Source: Glycine soja (taxonomy: Eukaryota; Streptophyta; Magnoliopsida; Fabales; Fabaceae). Taken from it: a stretch of 64,000 bases of DNA. The DNA lies in the NCBI RefSeq assembly GCF_004193775.1, contig NC_041020.1, positions 10,113,198 through 10,177,197 on the forward strand, given 5' to 3'. Below, one piece after another: positions 4,191 through 35,727 of this stretch. The notes under the pieces are model-generated. The model saw only the letters and a list, made by a program, of their open reading frames with translations, was not told the origin of the DNA and searched no databases. A program made the position numbers and the translations under genes. Numbering within the stretch: position 1 is the first letter of the stretch; each line of letters opens with the position of its first letter.

Positions 4191-5873
4191 TGTTGGATCA
4201 AGTGGCCTCAGAATAATTAAGAAGGGGGGGTTGAATTAATTATTAATGAACCTTTACTGATTAAAATTTACCTTTCTTAGGCTTTTACTATATTGTTAAG
4301 AAAGTAAATAACACAAATGGTAACTTAACCAAAAGTAAAAGCGACAATTAAAGTGCACAACGAAAAATAAAGAGTGTAGGGAAGAAGAAGACAAACACAA
4401 GAGTTTTATACTGGTTCGACAACAACCCGTGCCTACATCCAGTCCCCAAGCGACCTGCGGTCCTTGAGATTTCTTTTCAACCTTGTAAAATCCTTTACAA
4501 GCAAAGATCCACAAGGGATGTACCCTCCCTTGTTCTCTTTGAACAACCTAGTAGATGTACCCTCCACTAAAACTGATCCACAAGAGATGTACCCTCTCTT
4601 GTTCTCTATCAGAACAACCCAAGTAGATGTACCCTCAACTTGTACCACAAAGGATGTATCCTCCAATGTGTTAAGACAAAGTTCTCAGGCGGTTAGTCCT
4701 TCGAAACTTTGTGAAGGGGGAAACAAAATAATTCTTAGGCGGTTAGTCCTTTGAAATCTTTTGTTTATGGGAAAGGGAAGAATCAAAAGAATTCTCAGAC
4801 TGTGTCATTTTGAATTCTTTGACAAGGGAGAAGGGAGACATAAAAGAATTCAGGCGGTTAGTCCTTTGTCCTTTTGGAAAAAGGGAGAAGAGAGACACAA
4901 AAAGAATCCAGGCGATTAGTCCTTGGCGAATTCTTTTTGGCAAAGGGAGAAGGGAATGAAAAAGATGAATAGCACAAGTTTTGTTTTCAAGGTTTGGAAA
5001 AACAGAAAACTTAAGAAAGCTTTTGCAAAGGAAGAAGAAGAAGAAGAAGTTCAAGAAAATGTTCAAAGAGATTCAAAGGTTGTAAAAGAATATGTGGAAA
5101 AGTTGTTTGTAAAGGTTGTAAGTGTTATTGAAATGCAAATCAAGGTCTTGCTTTTATAGACTCTTCATGTCTGGTCAAGAAAACCATTAGAAGAGTTATA
5201 ACCTTTAGAAAAGCTTGAAAACCAATGGAAGAGTTACATCTTTTGATTTCTATTCAAAACTTATCACTGGTAATCGATTACCAAATCATTGTAATCGATT
5301 ACACAAAGCATTTTTGTGAAAGGATGTGACTCTCCACATTTAAATTTGAATTTCAACGTTCAAACATACTAGTAATCGATTACTAAATCATTGTAATCGA
5401 TTACACCATTTTGAAATCAATTGGAACATTGTAAATTCAGTTGAAAGCTTTTTGAAAACAATCTTTGCTACTGGTAATCGATTACAATAAACTGGTAATC
5501 AATTACTAGAGAGTAATAACTCTTTGGTAAAAGGTTTTGTGAAAAATTCATGTGCTACTCAATGTTTTGAAAAACTTTTTAGTACTTATCTTGATTGAGT
5601 CTTTTCTTGATTCTTGAATCTTCAACTTGATTATTCTTGATTCTTGATTCTTGAAACTTAAATCTTGAAACTTGATTCTTGAATCTTGAAATCAAATTTC
5701 CTCTTGATTCTTGAAGTGTTTTGGATTCAATCTTGAACTCATTCTCTCTTGATTCTTGAAGTGTTCTTGATTCAATCTTGAACTTATTCTCTTGGGCTTT
5801 TTGTCATCATCTTTGTTATCATCAAAACTCCTTGAATCAATCTCTATTCAACATCATGAAGCTTGCTTCTACA
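4191..5873 (-). mobile_element. SIRE-like copia solo LTR with GTATG duplication
   Basis: Minus-strand start is TGTAGAAGCAAGCTTC (ending at 5873) and the end is GGCCACTTGATCCAACA (4191). The flanks 4186-4190 and 5874-5878 are both GTATG, a perfect 5-bp target duplication. Contents in sense order: CAAGATTCAAGAATC-like repeats, GTAATCGATTAC palindromes, a TATAAAAG box (near 5153), the hairpin array, a GAACCAGTATAAAA motif and a C-run. Length is 1683 bp. Same family as 15997-17667 and 32749-34415. Confidence 0.95.
4482..4939 (-). repeat. Hairpin array of SIRE-like LTR, copy 1
   Basis: Eleven successive inverted repeats in sense order from 4939 to 4482. Five have loops around GGACTAACCGCCT; five have a 7-nt loop of GGGTACA type (one reads GGATACA); the last is CTTGTAAA with a short loop. 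The fourth unit here has arms AAACAAAA/TTTTGTTT where the other copies have ATACAAAA/TTTTGTAT, a paired change. Some pairs here are G-T, which still pair as G-U in RNA. Confidence 0.85.
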
Positions 5874-15996: not shown

Positions 15997-16159
15997 TGTA
16001 GAAGCAAAGCTTCATGATGAATCAAGATTGACTTGATTCAAAGATGTTTTGATGATAACAAAGATGATAACAAAAGATGATGATAAAGGTGATGACAAAA
16101 AGCTCAAAGGTCAATTAAAGAATGAGTTCAAGATATTCAAGATAGAATCAAGAACACTT

Positions 16160-16275
16160 CAAGATTCAAGAGGAAAGTTGATTTCAAGAATCAAGATTCA
16201 AGAGATCAAGATTTCAAGAATCAAGATTCAAGAGATCAAGATTCAAGACTCAAGATTCAAGAATCAAGAGAAGGC
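16160..16275 (+). repeat. CAAGATTCAAGAATC repeats
   Basis: Irregular tandem units TCAAGATTCAAGAATC with a GATTC-AA-GAATC inverted repeat inside. The same block occurs at 5600-5770 (inverse strand) and 32930-33005. Confidence 0.85.
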
Positions 16276-16366
16276 TTAATCAAGATAAGTATGAAAAGGT
16301 TTTCTCAAAAATTCAATAGCACATGGTTTTTCTCAAAACATGTTTACCAAAGAGTTTTTACTCTCT

Positions 16367-16605
16367 GGTAATCGATTACCAGATTGTTGTAATCGATTAC
16401 CAGTAGCAAAATGGATTTGAAAAAGTTTTCAAACTGAATTTACAACGTTCCAATTAATTTCAAAAAGTTGTAATCGATTACAATGTTTTGGTAATCGATT
16501 ACCAGTGCCTTTGAACGTTGAAATTCAAATTCAAATGTGAAGAGTCACATCCTTTCACATAAAAGCCTTGTGTAATCGATTACACTGATTTGGTAATCAA
16601 TTACC
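16367..16605. repeat. GTAATCGATTAC palindromes
   Basis: Five copies of core TAATCGATTA or a one-base variant, each extended by complementary flanks that differ: CTGG/CCAG, TTG/CAA, GTG/CAC. Upstream of the first TATA box of the solo LTR. Confidence 0.9.
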
Positions 16606-16921
16606 AGTGATTGTTTATGAATAAATAAAAAGATGTAACTCTTCAAATGGTTTTTGACTTTTTCAAATTGGTTTTAAGTTTTTCTAAAAGTTATAACTCT
16701 TCTAAATGGTCCTCTTGGCCAGACATGAAGAGTCTATAAAAGCAAGGCTTTGATTTGTTATTCAATATACTTTTCCTATCAATCTTATACAGTCCTTTAC
16801 AAGCCTTGAATCTCTTTGAACTTCTTCTTCTTCTTTGTGCCAAAAGCTTTCCAAAGTTTTATGGTTTTCTAAACCTTGAAAACTTGTGCTATTCATCTTT
16901 TTCATTCTCTTCTCCCTTTGC

Positions 16922-17375
16922 CAAAAAGAATTCTCCAGAGACTAACCGCCTGAATTCTTTTTGTGTCTCTCTTCTCCCTTTTCCAAAAGAACAAAGGACT
17001 AACCGCCTGAATTCTTTTGTGTCTCTCTTCTCCCTTGTCAAATAATTCAAAACGACACAGTCTGAGAATTCTTTTGATTCTTCCCATTTCCTTATACAAA
17101 AGTGTTTAAAGGACTAACTGCCTGAGAATTCTTTTGTATCCCCATTCACAAAGTATCAAAGGTTTAACCGCCTGAGGTCTATGTCTTAACACATTAGAGG
17201 GTACATCCTTTGTGGTACAAGTAGAGGATACATCTACTTGGGTTGTTGACTGAGAACAAGAGAGGGTACATCTCTTGTGGATCAGTTCTAGTGGAGGGTA
17301 CATCCACTAGGTTCAAAGAGAACAAGGGAGGGTACATCCCTTGTGGATCTTTGCTTGTAAAAGGATTTTTACAAG
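16922..17375 (+). repeat. Hairpin array of SIRE-like LTR, copy 2
   Basis: Starts with arms CAAAAAGAATTC... and ends with CTTGTAAAA-GGAT-TTTTACAAG. GGGTACA-type units in this copy have perfect 8-bp arms: CAAGTAGA/TCTACTTG, ACAAGAGA/TCTCTTGT, CTAGTGGA/TCCACTAG, ACAAGGGA/TCCCTTGT. Two of the upstream units are weakened by point changes. Confidence 0.9.
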
Positions 17376-17672
17376 GTTGAAAGAAATCTCAAGGACCACA
17401 GGTCGCTTGGGGACTGGATGTAGGCACGGGTTGTTGCCAAACCAGTATAAAAACTCTTGTGTGTTTGTCTCCTTCTTCCCTACTCTTTTACTTTCCGCTG
17501 TGCATTTTAATTTCCGCTTTTACTTATGGTTAAGTTTCTATTCTACTCCTTATTCTCTTAACAACATAAGTAAAAGCCTTAGAAGAGTAAATTTTTATTT
17601 AGTAAAGGTTTAGGAATAATTAATTCAACCCCCCTTCTTAATTATTCTGAGGCCACTCGATCCAACATTTTA

Positions 17673-18115: not shown

Positions 18116-18404
18116 ATATCTTCAAGAAACTGGAAATTAATTTGCCCTTTTGGAGAAGCACTTCAATAGATGCCACTCTATGCCAAATTTTTAAAAGATA
18201 TGCTGACGAAGAAGAACCAGTACATCCACAGTGATAGAATTGTGGTGGAAGGCAATTGTAGTGTTGTGATTCAACGCATTCTTCCGCCTAAGCACAAAGA
18301 TCCTGGAGTTGTCACAATACCGTTGGTGAGGTTGCTATAGGAAAAGCTCTCATAGATTTGGGAGCTAGTATCAATCTAATGCCTCTCTCCATGTGTCGGC
18401 GACT
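18116..18404 (+). pseudogene. Athila-type protease stub
   Basis: In shifting frames: FLDIFKKLEIN, then FLKDMLTKKNQYI, then the protease core [18 protein letters not shown] ending at 18404. The active-site motif is D-L-G-A instead of D-[ST]-G-A, a common form in this lineage. The frame ends abruptly where copia integrase begins; the N-terminal part of gypsy RT is absent. Confidence 0.8.
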
Positions 18405-20905
18405 TGGAACCATTACAATTACTACACATGGATTTGTTTGGCCCTTCTAGAATCATGAGTCTTGGAGGAAGTTACTATGCCCTTGTTATAGTTGATGATT
18501 ATTCTAGATACACATGGACACTATTTATCACTCATAAGAATGATGCATTTCAAGCATTTAGGAAACTTGCAAAAATGATTCAAAACAAGAAAAATATCAA
18601 AATTATTTCTATTAGGAGTGATCATGGGGGTGAATTTGAAAATAAAGAATTTGAATTATTTTGTGATAAGCATGGCATTGAACATAACTTTTCTGCATCT
18701 AGAACCCCTCAACAAAATGGAGTTGTTGAAAGGAAAAATAGATCTTTGGAAGAAATTGCTAGAACCTTATTAAATGACACCCTTCTTCCAAAATATTTTT
18801 GGGCTGAAGCCGTTAATACTGCATGCTATATCATGAATAGGGCTTTAATAAGACCCATTTTAAAGAAAACTCCATATGAACTGTTTAATGGTAGAAAACC
18901 CAACATTTCACACCTTCATGTTTTTGGTTGCAAATGCTTTGTATTAAACAATGGAAAAGAAAACTTAGGAAAGTTTGATGCTAAGTCAGATGAAGGAATT
19001 TTCCTTGGTTATTCCTTGCATAGTAAAGCTTATGGAATATATAATAAGAGAACTATGACTATTGAAGAATCTATTCATGTTTCCTTTGATGAGTCTAATG
19101 TTATTCCTCCAAGAAAGGATATTTTAGATGATATTGCAGAATCTTTAGAACAAATGCATATTTATGGACAAGATTCTAAAGGAAAAGGGAAAGGAAGCAA
19201 TGAAGATCCTCTAGAAGAAGCCAAATCAAATGATGAACTTCCAAGAGAATGGAAAGCTTCAAGAGATCATCCCCTTGACAACATTATTGGTGATATCTCA
19301 AAAGGGGTAACAACTAGACATTCTCTTAAAGATTTATGCAATAATATGGCTTTTGTGTCTATGATTGAACCTAAAAATTTAAATGAAGCCATAATAGATG
19401 ATCATTGGATATTTTCTATGCAAGAAGAACTAAATCAGTTTGAGAGAAACAATGTGTGGGAACTAGTAGAGAAACCTGAAAACTACCCCATCATAGGAAC
19501 AAAATGGGTATATAGGAATAAGTTAGATGAACATGGCATAATCATTAGGAATAAGGCTAGATTAGTTGCAAAAGGATATAATCAAGAAGAGGGAATAGAT
19601 TACGAAGAAACATATGCTCCAGTTGAAGGATTAGAAGCCATTAGAATGCTTTTAGCTTATGCATCCATAATGAATTTTAAGCTTTATCAAATGGATGTTA
19701 AAAGTGCTTTTCTAAATGGCTTAATTCAAGAAGAAGTATATGTTAAACAACCCCCAGGTTTTGAAATGTCAGATAAGCCAAATCATGTTTATAGATTGAA
19801 AAAGGCTTTATATGGTTTGAAACAAGCCCCTGGGGCATGGTATGAACGTCTAAGCAAATTTCTTTTAGAGAAAGATTTTTCTAGAGGAAAAGTGAATACC
19901 ACACTGTTCATAAAGAGAAAGCATAATGATATTCTGTTGGTTCAAATATATGTTGATGATATAATCTTTGGATCTACTAATGACTCATTGTGCAAGGAGT
20001 TTTCTCTTGATATGCAAAGCGAATTTGAGATGTCGATGATGGGAGAACTAAATTACTTCATGAGGTTACAAATCAAGCAAACTAAAGAAGGTATATTCGT
20101 CAACCAAGCAAAATACTGCAAAGAATTGATCAAAAGATTTGGGATGCAAAGTGCAAAGCACATGGCTACACCTATGAGTACTGGTTGTTACTTAGATAAA
20201 GATGAATCCGGTCAGTCTATAGACATGAAACAATATCGAGGTATGATTGGATATCTTCTCTATTTATCTGCTAGTAGACCGGATATCATGTTTAGTGTAT
20301 GCATGTGTGCTAGGTTCCAATCCAACCCCAAACAATCACATTTGAGTGAAATAAAAAGGATCATAAGATACCTATTAGGAACAATCAATTCGGGATTATG
20401 GTATCCTAAAAACTCAACATGTAACTTAATAGGATACTCTGATTCTGACTTTGCCGGATCCAAAACTGATAGAAAGAGCACAAGTGGGACATGTCAATTT
20501 ATTGGATCTACTCTTGTATCATGGCATAGTAAGAAACAAAATAGTGTTGCTTTATCTACTGCTGAAGCAGAATATATTTCTACTAGCAGTTGTTGTGCCC
20601 AAATTTTATGGATGAAGCAACAACTATCTGACTATGTAATCCTTCTTGATCATATACCCATTAGGTGTGACAATACAAGTGCAATCAATCTATCCAAAAA
20701 TCCAATTCAACACTCTAGAACCAAGCATATAGAAATTAGACACCATTTCTTAAGAGATCATGTTCTTAAGGGAGATTGTGTTCTAGAATTTGTTGATACA
20801 AAGAATCAGCTTGCTGATATCTTTACAAAACCTCTCCCTAAGGAAACATTATTTTCCATTAGGAGAGAATTAGGCCTCTTAGATGTTAGTGATTTGGATA
20901 AATAA
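18404..20905 (+). CDS. Copia integrase-RT-RNase H, open frame, 5' truncated
   Basis: Open for 833 codons. The frame begins at the junction with TTG; the first ATG is at 18428, so this is not a natural start. Integrase core has Asp10 (HMD), Asp73 (RSDHGGEF) and Glu109 (NGVVER), a D,D-35-E spacing. RT follows, with [12 protein letters not shown] and YVDD at 516-519. RNase H shows YSDSDFAGS (about 680), AEAEYI (about 720) and RCDNTSA (about 755), and ends ADIFTKPLP. Changes at usually fixed positions include GLKQAPGAW and YFMRLQIKQ. It would integrate and copy element RNA inside virus-like particles, but without gag and protease it cannot act alone. Confidence 0.95.
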
Positions 20906-21140: not shown

Positions 21141-22303
21141 TGTAGAAGCAAAGCTTCAAGAATTATTTTGATGATGCCAAGGAATTTAAAAGATCATTCA
21201 AGATGAATTTCAAGGATGAAGAAAGCAAGATGTCAAGCAAAGCAAAGATCTCAAGATAAGAATTAGGATAGACTCTAAGAAAAGTTTTTGAAAAGCACAA
21301 ATGATTGGCCAAGTGAGTTTCTATCTTAACAAAAACTTTTCCAAGCATTTTACTCTCTAGTAATCGATTACCAGAGGTTGTAATCGATTACCAGTGACCA
21401 CAAAGCTTTTTGGAAATGTTTTCAAAGTTATTTTCAAAGTTTTCAAAGCTGTAATCAATTACCAAAACTATGTAATCGATTACCAATGCTTTAAAACGGT
21501 TAAAAATGATTTTGTAAGTGTGTAATCGATTACACATCATATGTAATCGATTATCGGAGCTTTTGAACATTGGACATTTTAATTTTGAATAAAATTAACT
21601 GTGTAATTGATTACGCCAATGCTGTAATCGATTACCAGAGAGGATTTTCGAGAAAATCTGCCAACAGTCACAACTTTTCATTAGATTTTTGAATGGCCAT
21701 CAAAGGCATTTAAATAGGTGACTTGGGCACAAATTTTCTTTAGAGTTTTCAATGTTCACAAAAGACATAATCCTCTCAAACAAAAATCTCTTATCTTCAA
21801 AAATTCCTTGGCCAAACACTTGGGTTATTCAATAAGGAATTGAGGGCTTCATTGTAACATTTGTCTCTTTCAAGAGAGATCATTTCTTCTTCTTCTTCTT
21901 ACTTCTGAAAAAGGGCCAAGAGACTGTGAGTCTCTTGTTGTAAAGCATCTAAGCACAACGGAAGGGTTGTACTTGTGTGTTTCAGAAGGTGTAAAGGATT
22001 TGTGAGATAGTGGAACTCCCAAGCGGATTTCTTGGGGACTGGACGTAGGCAATGGACTTTGTTGAACCAGTATAAAAATTGTGTTTGCATTTTCTCTTCC
22101 CTTAAACTCTTTTATTTTATTGTTGCTTATTGTTTCTATTCAGTAAGTTTAATTTGAATTATTATTTAGGAATTCATTTTAAAAGGAATCTTGGGACTTG
22201 GGTAAAAATCAAAGTAGAATTTTTAATTGGGGAATAGTTTGTGATATTTTAATTCAACACCCCCCCCCCCCTTCTTAAGATATCTGAGGCCACTTGTCCA
22301 ACA
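21141..22303 (+). mobile_element. 3' LTR of SIRE-lineage copia
   Basis: Starts TGTAGAAGCAAAGC, ends CCACTTGTCCAACA; 1163 bp. Carries at least six TAATCGATTA palindromes (21359-21645), a hairpin CAAGAGACT-GTG-AGTCTCTTG at about 21919-21939, a wider CTTCTGAAA/TTTCAGAAG pairing around it, GAACCAGTATAAAA at about 22063 and a 12-base C-run at 22260. A sister family of the SIRE-like solo LTRs. Confidence 0.95.
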
Positions 22304-22830
22304 TAACCACCTAATAATTATTTGTCCTAACACATTGGAGGATACATCCTTTGTGGTACAAGTAGAGGGTACATCTACTTGGGTTGTTATACTGAGAACA
22401 AGAGAGGGTACATCTCTTGTGGATCAATTCAAGTGGAAGGTACATCCACTTGGTTGTTCAAAGAGAACAAGGGAGGGTACATCCCTTGTGGATCTTTGGC
22501 TTGTAAAGGATTTTACAAGGTTGAAAGAAATCTCAAGAATCGTTGGTTGCTTGGGAACTGGATGTAGGCACGGGTTGTTTTCGAACCAGTATAATTCTTG
22601 TGTTTGTCTTCTTCTTCCCTACACTCTTTACATTTCCGTTGTATACTTTTAATTGCCGCTTTTACTTTTGGTTAAGTTATTGTTTATGTTCTTTACTTTC
22701 TTAACTTAGTAGTAAAAGCCTAGTTGAATCTAGTAACATTAAGAAGGATAAACTTTTTAATTAGTCAAGACACATTAATAATTAATTCAACCCCGCCTTC
22801 TTAATTATTTCGAGGCCACTTGATCCAACA
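22304..22830 (+). mobile_element. 3' part of a SIRE-like copia LTR
   Basis: Starts mid-LTR at TAACCACCTAATA (matching TAACCGCCTGAG of complete copies) and ends CACTTGATCCAACA. It lacks U3 and the first hairpin class. The truncated copia element at 18405-22303 had inserted in this LTR; the left half is gone. Confidence 0.9.
22331..22518 (+). repeat. Hairpin array of SIRE-like LTR, partial copy 3
   Basis: Five GGGTACA-type units plus the terminal hairpin. The fourth unit has arms CAAGTGGA/TCCACTTG where copy 2 has CTAGTGGA/TCCACTAG, a change on both arms that keeps the pair. Confidence 0.9.
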
Positions 22831-31740: not shown

Positions 31741-32748
31741 TGTGGTTGCAATAAGGTTAAAATTAGATAATTGATTTCCTCATGGGTAGGGTGGCAGCGA
31801 TGCATTGCTAGATATCAATCACCGTGTATAATATTTAATGTTATAACGATAATATTTAATATTATTTCCAATTTAGTTGGAGTCTATAGTGTCACACATG
31901 TAAAGTAATCAATTGGAACAAATGAATAAACTAAATGTGATTTAATTAATTAACAACATATTTAATTAAATGAGATTTAATTAAATGATACATAATACGA
32001 AAAATATAATTAATTATATTTGAATTAATTAATTATCTATATAACTAATCAAAATTGATTTGATGGGTGTCGCAACCTACCCTACGACGGGAGTGCATGA
32101 TGAAAAGAAAAAGTGTGTCTTCTCATGAAGAAAACGCGTGGAAGTTGCCACCAACATTTATTCGAGGAAAATGTTAGAAAAACCAAAAAGAGATCTACGA
32201 ATATTGAAAATAAGGGTTCAGGAGTTGTTTACGCATAGGGAAGGTATTAGCACCCCACGCGCCAACCATAAGGGACGGCAGCCTTTAATCGAGTGTGCAT
32301 AACGTGACTTCAAAATTATTTATTTTCCCTTTTTATATTTTTTTCTTTTTTGGGGTCGACAAGGGTGTTGCCCTTGCTCCTATGTATCGTCAAGTGGGAG
32401 GAGGAATTCAGACCTACGTAGTTCTTTAAGTCTGAATGTTTGTGTGTTAAATTGATTTTATGTTTTTGAAAGATTTATTTTAATTATGAACAAAAGGTCA
32501 TTAAGGCATTAGAGCTTGAAATGATATTTTAAATTTTAAAACGCGAAGCGAATCGTTAAAGCGTTGGACCTTGAAATGATCTCAAGTGATATTTGATAAA
32601 CAAAAAAAAAAGTTATCTATGAGTTGGATTTCTCTAGGTTTCATTTATTAACTTCCAATCTTTTTAAAGACAACTTTACAACACTAATGATCGGTTAAGA
32701 TTGAACTTTACAAACAAAACGAGATAACCGATGATAGGTGGAGGAAAT

Positions 32749-34415
32749 TGTAGAGCAAGCTTCATGATGAATCAAGATTGATTCAAAGAGTTTCGATGAT
32801 AACAAAGATGATGACAAAAAGCTCAAAAGTCAAGAACACATCATGATAACAAAGATGATGATCTCAAGAATCAAAGAATGAGTTCAAGATTGAATCAAAA
32901 ACACTTCAAGGTTCAAAAGGAAATTTGATTTCAAGAATCAAGAATCAACTTTCAAGATTCAAGTTCCAAGAATCAAGATCAAGACTCAAGATTCAAGAAT
33001 CAAGAGAAGACTCAATCAAGATAAGTATTAAAAAGTTTTTTCAAAAACTGAGTAGCACATGAATTTTTCTCAAAACCTTTTACCAAAAAGTTTTTACTCT
33101 GGTAATTGATTACCAGTAGCAAAATGGTTTTCAAAAAGCTTTCAACTGAATTTACAACGTTCCAATTGATTTCAAAATGTTGTAATCGATTACAATGATT
33201 TGGTAATCGATTACCAGTGTGTTTGAACATTGAAATTCAAATTTAATTGTGAAGAGTCACATCCTTTCACAAAAAAAGCTTTGTGTAATCGATTACACTG
33301 ATTTGGTAATCGATTACCAGTGATAATTTCTGAACAAAATCAAAAGATGTAACTCTTCCAATAGTTTTCAAGTTTTTCTAAAAGTTATAACTTTTCCAAA
33401 TGGTTTTTAAGTTTTTCTAAAGGTTATAACTCTTCTAATGGTTCTCTTGACCAGACATGAAGAGTCTATAAAAGCAAGGCTTTGATTTGCTTTTCAATGT
33501 ATCTTTTCAATTCATTCTTTAGACAACAAACTTTTGCCAATTGATTTCTTAGTCTCTTTGAACTTCTTCTTCTTCCTTTGCCAAAAGCTTTCCAAAGTTT
33601 TCTAGTTTTCCAAACCTTGAAAACTGTGTTATTCATCTTTTTCATTCCCTTCTCCCTTTGCCAAAAAGAATTCGCCAAGGACTAACCGCCTGAATTCTTT
33701 TTGTGTCTCTCTTCTCCCTTTTTCAGAAGAACAAACGACTAACTGCCTGAATTCTTTTGTGTCTCCCTTCTCCCTTGTCAAAGAATTCAAAACGACACAG
33801 TCTGAGAATTCTTTTGATTCTTCCCTTTCCCATATACAAAAGATTTCAAAGGACAAACCGCCTGAGAATTCTTTTGTATCCCCACTCACAAAGTTTCAAA
33901 GGTTTAACTGCCTGAGAACTTTGTCTTAACACATTGGAGAGTACATCCTTTGTGGTACAAGTAGAGCGTACATCTACTTGGGTTGTTGACTGAGAACAAG
34001 AAGGGGTACATCTCTTGTGGATCAGTTCTAGTGGAGGGTACATCCACTAGGTTGTTCAAAGAGAACAAGGGAGGGTACATCCCTTGTGGATCTTTGCTTG
34101 TAAAAGGATTTTTACAAGGTTGAAAAGAAATCTCAAGGACTGCAGGTCGCTTGGGGACTAGATGTAGGCACGGGTTGTTGCCGAACCAGTATAAAAACTC
34201 TTGTGTGTTTGTCTCCTTCTTCCCTACTCTTTTAATTTCCGCTGTGCACTTTAATTTCTGCTTTTACTTTTGGTTAAGTTTCTTTTCTATTCTTCATTTA
34301 CTTAACAATATAGTAAAAGCCTTAGAAGAGTAAATTTTTAATTAGTAAAGTTTTAGGAATAATTAATCCAACCCCCCCCCCATTCTTAATTATTATGAGG
34401 CCACTTGATCCAACA
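32749..34415 (+). mobile_element. SIRE-like copia solo LTR with GAAAT duplication
   Basis: Starts TGTAGAGCAAGCTTC, ends CACTTGATCCAACA; flanks GAAAT at 32744-32748 and 34416-34420. 1667 bp. Same internal order as the other two solo copies: CAAGATTC repeats, TAATCGATTA palindromes, TATAAAAG (about 33466), hairpin array, GAACCAGTATAAAA (34184), C-run (34372-34381). Confidence 0.95.
33662..34118 (+). repeat. Hairpin array of SIRE-like LTR, best copy
   Basis: Arms: 33662-33673/33692-33703; 33724-33731/33752-33759; 33778-33788/33806-33817; 33834-33842/33871-33879; 33888-33895/33917-33924. These loops hold ACTAACCGCCT or a relative. Then 33930-33938/33946-33954; 33958-33965/33973-33980; 33996-34003/34011-34018 (weakened); 34028-34035/34043-34050; 34065-34072/34080-34087, with 7-nt GGGTACA-type loops. 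Last 34097-34105/34110-34118. First stem is 12 perfect base pairs. Confidence 0.9.
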
Positions 34416-35727
34416 GAAATGAACATGCACAAAACAACAAGGGTGGCCCTAAGGGCATAGATCATATTTGAATCTTAAAAAAAAAACTAACCAATGGTCG
34501 CACGAAGAATAACGAACAAGGAACAACGTAGAGATTGATGACAGTCGCGATTCCGCAGCGCCTCGGCATCGTTTCCTCTTCTTTCTTCTTCTTCTTTCTC
34601 TCTTCTCTCAATTTCCTTCACTACTGAACCTTGGAACCCATTCCTCGCCCCCTCCCCCCCCCCCCCCTTCACACCTTTTTATAGTAAAAAATGGCATTTG
34701 GGACCATGGCAGCTCGCCCAGGCGAGCAGATGCTTCATCCTAAGCAATTAAGGGGCCCAGGCGAGCCAGAGGCTAGCCTGGGCGAGCTAGGGTCCATAAA
34801 ACTCACTGAAAAGACACTTTTGCCCCTCCCTTTTGGTATATTTCGCATCCTTGACCAAAACATCAAACAATCTTTCATCTTGTGCGATAACTAGTGTCGA
34901 ATAACACAGTTCGGCTAGCGAGAATCAAAACATCAGTGAATGATAGTCCCCGGACAAAATTAGGGTATGACAATGGGATAATTATATCTAATCAAATATG
35001 ATTTGATAAGATGATAATATCTAATGAAATATGATGTGATGAGCTAAAAATATGTTATATCTAATCAAATAAGATTTGAAGAGAAGTTTAATTGAATTGG
35101 GACAAGCCCAATCCAATTAAATTTTGGACCAGCCTAAGGGGGAGGTGAGCATTTGCTTGCTACACCCCATTATCATATCATATAGTCACACTTTGTGTGT
35201 GTCCTTCATGCTTTACATGCCTCATGACACCTAAGGACATTTAGTGGAGAATATTGGACTTGATCTTGGATTAGTGGGTTGAACCATAGCCGAAATTCAC
35301 TAATCATAATTAGTGAAATTTTGGCTCCACAAATTCAAATTCAAGTGAAATTTGAATAGAAATTCAAATTTCCCTCCAATTTTGTGTGACACTTAGGCTA
35401 TAAATAAAGGCCTTGTGTGTGAATTTTTTTGAACTTTGATCATTTGAGAAATTAGAATTCAAAGTTCAAACCTCATTCTCCCTCTTATCTCTCTCAAAAT
35501 TTTGTTCCCCTTTCTTCCTCCCCTTCCACTCATCTTCTCCTACCTTCAAGCTCTTATCCATGGCTTCCTATGGTGGTGAATTTGTTCTTGACTCATCTTC
35601 TCCTTGAAGTGGCATCTCCAATCACCTTTCCTCCTTTTCCATTCAGCTGCCATTGATCTTCAAGAAGTAAAGGACTTCATTGATGAAGAAGATCCAAGGC
35701 CTACAAACTCTACATGGAGCTACATTA

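Follow-up and report, generated by a model that had tools for sequence, protein, structure and literature searches.

A hairpin array with conserved loops and covarying stems in the long terminal repeat of a Sirevirus from Glycine soja, a candidate structured leader module

Introduction

Palindromes are already known from the long terminal repeats (LTRs) of Sireviruses, a genus of Ty1/copia retrotransposons. Of 21 Sireviruses, 13 reportedly carry palindromic RM boxes; these cluster in the upper LTR half, and the TATA box comes shortly past their CpG island (PMC2829016, accessible part). In maize Sireviruses, clusters of LTR palindromes with the consensus CACCGGACNNNGTCCGGTG and strong predicted structure lie in a variable region and are described as cis-regulatory (Bousios et al. 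2016, as relayed in the accessible parts of PMC10760457 and PMC5311732). For the leader hairpins of Ty1, a kissing-loop model of dimerisation and packaging has been proposed (PMC5454406, accessible part). Here we analyse an array of eleven hairpins in a Sirevirus LTR of Glycine soja, which lies in a 64,000-nucleotide stretch of contig NC_041020.1 (assembly GCF_004193775.1, positions 10,113,198 to 10,177,197, forward strand). This stretch is hereafter called the window, and its own coordinates are used throughout.

The array occupies positions 33662-34118 of one LTR, copy A, is carried by most of the sampled copies, and consists of two classes of hairpins with conserved loops and a final hairpin. 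Covariation, rather than folding energy, is the decisive evidence for it: between two diverged repeats of the second class, stem pairs have changed on both sides with pairing kept.

Architecture of the array

All eleven inverted repeats of the initial annotation are present, several of them imperfect, in the order class 1 (u1-u5), class 2 (v1-v5) and final hairpin w:

33662..33703, + strand: hairpin u1, 12 bp stem
33724..33759, + strand: hairpin u2, 8 bp including one G.T
33778..33817, + strand: hairpin u3, 11 bp, one bulge, different loop
33834..33879, + strand: hairpin u4, 13 bp, one mismatch
33888..33924, + strand: hairpin u5, 9 bp, one bulge
33930..33954, + strand: hairpin v1, 4+3 bp around two T.T mismatches, loop GAGTACA
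33958..33980, + strand: hairpin v2, 8 bp, loop GCGTACA in copy A
33988..34027, + strand: compound hairpin v3, loop GGGTACA; outer helix 33988-33993/34022-34027, GA/GGA internal loop, inner helix 33996-34003/34011-34018
34028..34050, + strand: hairpin v4, 8 bp, loop GGGTACA
34057..34096, + strand: compound hairpin v5, loop GGGTACA; outer helix 34057-34062/34091-34096, GA/GGA internal loop, inner helix 34065-34072/34080-34087
34097..34118, + strand: hairpin w, 9 bp in copy A

The stems had been described as self-complementary; the departures are the G.T of u2, the bulges of u3 and u5, the mismatches of u4 and v1 (both T.T mismatches of v1 recur in 67 of 67 copies) and two changes beside the loop of v3 in copy A, one of them common to 7 of 67 copies. 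The class 1 loop attributed to five units is ACTAACCGCCT-like in u1, u2, u4 and u5 and different in u3, and the five supposed GGGTACA loops are three in copy A, with GAGTACA in v1 and GCGTACA in v2. Two extra outer helices of up to 6 bp enclose v3 and v5 with the same GA/GGA internal loop. The units of the array are tandem duplicates, and class 2 (33926-34096) contains two diverged 69-nt repeats, v2+v3 and v4+v5.

MIRNA-type hairpins have stems of about 20 bp or more, a length not reached here, where the longest stem has 13 pairs and the compound hairpins have 14 with an internal loop. Rfam gave five matches at E up to 1 in 32700-34500, all on the minus strand and all under gathering scores. 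A coding reading of the array was rejected, the loop spacings of 27, 38, 32 and 37 not being multiples of three throughout, and pairing between class 1 and class 2 loops was dropped at a maximum of 3 bp (by eye).

Covariation between the two class 2 repeats

The comparison comprises 67 rows, namely 21 A-group, 20 C-group and 22 D-group copies from 60 fetched regions, together with four window copies. Groups are named after the query that retrieved a copy and are not tree-based; a few rows resemble another type. The LTRs of the window that matter here are:

32749..34415, + strand: copy A, solo LTR of 1667 bp, TG...CA (from sequence, alignment with other copies and BLAST)
32744-32748 and 34416-34420: target-site duplication (TSD) GAAAT of copy A, 5 bp each (from sequence)
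15997..17667, + strand: copy B, solo LTR carrying the array, TSD TTTTA
4191..5873, - strand: copy C, solo LTR carrying the array, TSD CATAC
22304..22830, + strand: copy D2, 3' portion of a D-type LTR, including class 2, split by a sister Sirevirus element
21141..22303, + strand: D1, 3' LTR of the sister Sirevirus family, which lacks the leader array and served as negative control

The comparison of v2+v3 with v4+v5 within each row covers 22 pairs and 25 unpaired sites. What separates the repeats of the least mutated copies is one linker indel plus 12 substitutions, and these substitutions amount to six pairs changed on both sides, so that 6 of 22 pairs differ two-sidedly with pairing kept; unpaired sites are likewise unchanged between the repeats of these copies, which is weak alone (~0.07). 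Over all rows (n=67), a mean of 5.06 pairs are two-sided and still paired, 0.87 are one-sided and 0.09 are changed on both sides and unpaired, with 0.64 changes at unpaired sites. The exact pattern (6,0,0,0) is found in 6 of 67 rows and (4,0,0,0) in 4. Copy A itself has 6 two-sided and 2 one-sided pairs and 1 unpaired-site change. When an equal number of changes was placed at random (20,000 trials; A, L030 and D2), the mean was 0.19-0.43 two-sided pairs, and the maxima were 5 (A), 3 (L030) and 3 (D2).

Private changes behave differently. With a private state defined as one present in at most 3 of 67 rows, private class 2 stem changes are one-sided in 50 of 50 cases, 16 of which still form a standard pair, and none is two-sided; matched changes are thus not the ordinary outcome in these copies. 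A Fisher contrast of 6:0 against 0:50 gives p = 3e-8, where the six are differences of one ancient duplication and not independent loci. Private changes per site and copy run at 0.007 in stems, 0.0115 in loops and 0.0087 in linkers, and wobble is not favoured among them. In the outer helix of v3, a G.U stands where v5 has C-G in all 42 distinct rows with letters there; this conserved G.U, a single case, suggests RNA better than DNA.

A pair counter was applied to 22 repeat sequences from 11 hand-chosen copies of the 67 (14 distinct rows). It found 98.7% paired cells and six two-sided pairs, against at most 48.9% and two pairs in slid structures. Paired cells, two-sided cells and the covariation score each lay above column shuffles (0/500 each); the number of two-sided pairs did not (6 vs mean 5.0; 145/500).

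Changes between copies and signs of selection

Between copies, matched changes are few. The second pair of v4 is T-A in 41 (A/C-type), A-T in 20 (D-type) and otherwise in 1 of 62 distinct rows, and at the second pair of u4, 18 of the 21 A-group copies have T-A and 19 of the 20 C-group copies have A-T, the D-group (n=22) having 14 T-A, 2 A-T and 6 other or not found. The arms of w change length together, with 9 bp in most of the A-group, 8 bp in 20 of 22 D-group copies and both forms in the C-group. Both w and u4 were counted by motif; the pair tables for w and D-type class 1 are misaligned. The orthologous class 2 alignment is 98.2% paired (slid structures, at most 47.5%), with two-sided cells above shuffles (20 vs 7.4; 0/500). 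The proposal that loops are kept as stems vary in a matched way describes the class 2 repeats well and was shown in class 1 at one pair only, that of u4; likewise, the covariation expected across genomic copies is found between repeats and comes down to one pair between orthologues.

To look at selection, singletons were compared with variants in at least 3 copies, in class 2 versus the rest of the LTR with class 1 excluded. Shared variants are short in class 2 of the A- and C-groups together (shared:singleton 8:54 vs 203:446 elsewhere, p=0.002), as they are in A alone (singleton:shared 35:2 vs 209:54, p=0.024) and C alone (30:1 vs 403:107, p=0.011). Seven of the eight shared class 2 variants in A+C are G-to-A or C-to-T, and recurrent deamination may be their source. 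Singletons per site are about equally frequent in class 2 and elsewhere in the A-group (0.205 vs 0.20-0.255) and rarer in class 2 in C (0.175 vs 0.13-0.61) and D (0.124 vs 0.30-0.74), where copy picking or poor U3 alignment may lie behind the difference. The shortage of shared variants, which is not significant in D, suggests purifying selection on class 2 in active lineages, and pairing seems to have been kept in the lineages that transposed.

Identity between A- and D-type copies of 0.94-0.98 per 25-nt bin in class 2, against 0.01-0.94 elsewhere, was set aside as biased, the D set having been picked by a class 2 query. A second set was drawn with a downstream-region query and comprises 20 of its 39 other places. 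Class 2 here has an A/D identity of 0.852, class 1 one of 0.628 and 34119-34160 one of 0.828, values that include the cut copies L097, L099 and L104 and the unit-loss copies L085 and L100. Fixed A/D differences (70% rule) number 4 in 33926-34096 and 5 in 34119-34188. Class 2 is retained over its length by 17 of these 20 copies, and all five units are present in 15 of the 17; L099 is cut within v2, L097 retains only the last class 2 arm and L104 retains none. In L085 and L100 (2/20), class 2 units are deleted and one GGTACATC loop is joined to the next.

In L097 and L104 (2/20 downstream-picked LTRs), unrelated DNA interrupts the LTR at class 2 or close to it. L099 has another such LTR, in inverse orientation, whose start abuts the v2 loop; in L081, a D1-family LTR lies near three GGTACATC loops; and in D2, the sister element terminates within the segment aligning to the u5 hairpin loop of the D-type LTR. 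Together, L099, L081 and D2 hint that such elements land in the hairpin array. LTR retrotransposons reportedly often target palindromes (PMC6911290).

Folding energy and predicted ensemble

Folding the array against shuffled controls, as the initial annotation had proposed, gave a clear departure: the minimum free energy is -140.8 kcal/mol, the mean over shuffles being -111.7 (z -4.7), and 0 of 300 shuffles were as low. Class 1 has z of -5.3 in copy A, -2.6 in B and -3.0 in C, and class 2 has -5.2 to -5.5 in A (two runs), -6.1 in B, -6.0 in D2 and -3.3 in C (1/200 shuffles as low). In a window-wide scan (200-nt steps, 24 shuffles per step), the three array windows ranked 17th, 19th and 24th of 320 on the + strand and class 2 of B ranked 3rd; upstream windows of the D1 LTR are also structured (z -6.1, -3.0). 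Folding energy was therefore rejected as sufficient proof, since other transposable-element windows are as strong and the strands score alike. In the predicted ensemble of the whole copy A leader, u1, u4, v2 and v4 have mean pair probabilities above 0.9, with 0.64 for u5 and 0.70 for v1. Over the 63 fetched copies, predicted group means are 0.82-0.95 for v2 and v4, 0.50-0.83 for v3 and 0.17-0.53 for v5.

Position relative to promoter motifs

The motifs that place the array within the LTR are:

33466..33474, + strand: CTATAAAAG, which fits the Sirevirus TATA consensus (taken from PMC2829016, accessible part), in copies A, B and C; 43% along the LTR in A
34189..34197, + strand: GTATAAAAA, a second TATA-like motif that follows the array and lies in a block common to the sister family
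33100..33325, + strand: U3 palindromic boxes upstream of the mid-LTR TATA, TAATCGATTA at 33183, 33204, 33286 and 33307, TAATTGATTA at 33103

The array starts 188 nt past 33474 and is upstream of the second TATA-like motif only. The TAATCGATTA boxes upstream of the TATA, four in LTR A and six in LTR D1 (21361-21634), are candidate RM boxes with an ATCGAT core like that listed for Tnd-1 (PMC2829016, accessible part). The array differs from RM boxes in that 33662-34118 holds no CGG-CCG core (CGG is absent from the + strand and CCG occurs twice) and is not clustered upstream of the mid-LTR TATA; its 457 nt contain 6 CG dinucleotides. On the + strand, the copy A array has no ATG (0 vs 4.2 expected, p=0.005). 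The array lacks ATG in 29 of 66 copies, with a mean of 0.76 against 4.5 in shuffled sequence, counts that are non-independent owing to the repeats. This scarcity is in line with a scanned leader.

Locus and family identity

The array-bearing LTR is a member of a high-copy Sirevirus (Ty1/copia) family. The genome searched (1,013,641,977 bases, 1119 contigs) gave 6719 first-look candidate places for the A-type query, which are candidates and not counted copies. Sireviruses are defined by an LTR end of CA/A(T or G)TGG/TATCAGAGC, with a met-tRNA primer site after a short spacer, and by several AGGGGGAG polypurine tracts with AT/TG after the last (PMC2829016, accessible part). The junction CA/AGTGG/TATCAGAGC is found in L018, L026, L036, L048, L052 and L057. 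L018, a two-LTR copy with copia pol-like segments in its internal region (read by eye), has three AGGGGGAG tracts, the final one as AGGGGGAG-AT/TGTAGAAGC; L057 has no exact AGGGGGAG match. LTR-pair divergence (Kimura two-parameter, K2P) is 0.023 over 1667 sites in L018 and 0.047 over 873 sites, about half of the LTR, in L057. A poly-C tract at 34372..34381 (+ strand), 34 nt before the LTR end, may correspond to the Sirevirus integrase signal, which is C-rich and about 21 bp from the LTR end (PMC2829016, accessible part). Copy A is flanked by the TSD GAAAT on both sides and has no internal region in the window, and is therefore a solo LTR; the LTR annotated as SIRE-like is not part of a complete element.

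The sister Sirevirus element in the window has its pol at 18404-20905 with Pfam RVT_2 and rve, three AGGGGGAG tracts and its 3' LTR at 21141-22303; the left part of the D2 LTR was not found by BLAST within the window. Two further LTR-pair-like repeats are present, 12787-14386/29425-30961 (~88% identity) and 37026-38336/52261-53737 (78-87%; BLAST pieces), one of them with a ATTGGTATCTGAGC junction on the minus strand. Outside the genome, one 19-nt exact pattern found no copies in viral_contigs, and two 19-nt matches in prokaryote metagenome-assembled genomes (a Lachnospiraceae contig and a Prevotellaceae contig) were taken as chance.

Discussion

Selection has probably kept the structure of the array. 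What the structure does is far less firmly indicated. A tentative reading, a little short of an even chance, is that the array serves as a module of RNA secondary structure in the R-U5 leader of this Sirevirus family, with the loops as a repeated protein-binding site. Transcription would start about 30 nt after 33466, which would place the array in the 5' leader RNA, ahead of the primer binding site and at some 165-620 nt from the start. In the cell, the leader RNA would fold into hairpins of two kinds, displaying two conserved loops, ACTAACCGCCT-like and GGGTACA, with the stems as replaceable scaffolds beneath them. Conserved loops on exchangeable stems suggest that the loops are what is recognised, and these could form a multivalent protein site, most likely for the element's own Gag, in packaging and dimerisation; since GTAC in the loop is self-complementary, loop-loop contacts would also be possible. 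A role in packaging or dimerisation, for which the leader kissing loops of Ty1 are a precedent, may be entertained with less confidence than the module itself. In the fullest version, as many as ten hairpins would form a multivalent display on the leader RNA, their two fixed loops being bound by Gag or by a host protein for packaging and dimerisation, and compensatory divergence of the stems would let each hairpin pair with itself and not with its neighbours; this version is somewhat unlikely as a whole.

Several observations weigh against the leader module. The six paralogous changes trace to one duplication, and among orthologous copies there is one two-sided class 2 pair, not above shuffles (1 vs 1.6), as is also true of the number of pair types. 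D2 has only 3 two-sided pairs, with 1 both-changed unpaired pair and 1 unpaired-site change; 3 is its random maximum, so D2 alone is not beyond its null. In the D-group, which was picked by a class 2 query, the shared:singleton ratio is 3:21 vs 124:449 (p=0.44). The minus strand of class 2 folds equally unusually (z -6.4), and with both strands scoring alike, folding energy tells neither RNA from DNA nor one strand from the other. Five of the eleven hairpins (u2, u3, v3, v5 and w) stay below 0.4 in the ensemble predicted for copy A. The D1 leader is unstructured (z +0.3 to +1.6), AACCGCCT occurs in 0 of 12 D1 loci, and 10 of 12 have no GGTACATC, one of the other two being the window copy adjoining D2; the sister family being without the array, it is not a general Sirevirus requirement. 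The leader role itself is inferred from sequence and predicted folding.

Four other explanations have to be weighed. Ordinary tandem duplication followed by decay, with the symmetry left over, has in its favour that the units are tandem duplicates and that individual copies are decaying. As the initial annotation had argued, it does not fit: in the least mutated copies all six diverged pairs are two-sided, well beyond the random-placement mean, and these changes together with the pair-counter result contradict it, which leaves it barely credible. A more serious contender is template switching at quasi-palindromes, whether in reverse transcription or in replication, since copying arm to arm yields matched stems and unchanged loops without structural selection. 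RNA hairpins are reported to arise in this way, and the mechanism has been proposed to preserve stems with the loop left as it is (PMC8794818, accessible part); the matched stem changes and the matched length change of w are what it predicts, and the loop-to-loop deletions of L085 and L100 show that jumps between units occur. The same source, in its accessible part, calls the maintenance role less clear. None of the 50 private stem changes is two-sided, although private changes are probably mostly post-insertion and so do not measure reverse transcription; the unchanged unpaired sites, weak alone, and the class 2 shared-variant depletion also count against it, the latter pointing to selection acting as well. 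We regard template switching without selection as unlikely.

At the DNA level, the palindromes may instead be enhancer boxes for transcription factors, with the promoter at the second TATA-like motif (34189). The array is indeed upstream of GTATAAAAA, its loop GTAC and AACCG resemble SBP and MYB core sites, and the RM boxes set a precedent for such palindromes. Transcription factors would, however, be expected to conserve the arms, not to let them covary round fixed loops; the consensus-fitting TATA (33466) lies upstream of the array, the TAATCGATTA boxes already occupy the place of RM boxes, and without CGG on the + strand the array cannot have their CGG-CCG core. This explanation is quite unlikely. 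It is highly improbable that the hairpins matter mainly to the host, as small-RNA substrates that silence the family. Small RNAs of maize Sireviruses do concentrate on palindrome-rich LTR regions (PMC10760457 and PMC5311732, accessible parts), but 8-13 bp is little for a stem that is to yield Dicer products, and an element gains no reason to preserve pairing from being silenced; small-RNA production would be a consequence and not a cause.

Comparison with known systems

The thousands of candidate places form a large natural data set on structured RNA in plant retrotransposons. Selection for folding and template switching can be tested against each other here, the element passing through reverse transcription and leaving dated copies. 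The data also suggest that no fewer than two kinds of palindrome exist in Sirevirus LTRs, one lying upstream of the promoter and one downstream.

Repeated hairpins that offer a conserved loop to one protein are familiar from retroviral packaging signals and from the Csr/Rsm sponge RNAs. The likeness of the array to these is one of analogy. A limited literature search found no packaging signal described for plant retrotransposons. Ty1 is closer, being a copia-type LTR retrotransposon whose leader hairpins have complementary loops; its hairpins are single and experimentally tested, as opposed to the up to eleven repeated, predicted hairpins here (PMC5454406, accessible part, for Ty1).

The initial annotation knew of no description of such an array, which overlooks the palindrome clusters of Sirevirus LTRs (PMC2829016; for maize, PMC10760457 and PMC5311732; accessible parts of each). 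No published description of this particular array was recognised in literature lying mostly outside subscription papers, the 2016 maize study being among the latter. The accounts of the maize clusters that are cited here, as far as accessible, give no pattern of conserved loops and covarying stems. The RM palindromes (PMC2829016, accessible part) are likewise present in multiple copies in LTRs of the same retrotransposon genus. Compared with them, the array has two loop classes and covarying arms and lies downstream of the TATA, and a separate RM-like set of TAATCGATTA boxes stands upstream. Palindrome clusters in Sirevirus LTRs are thus already published, and the downstream array of conserved loops on covarying stems is a new variant of them.
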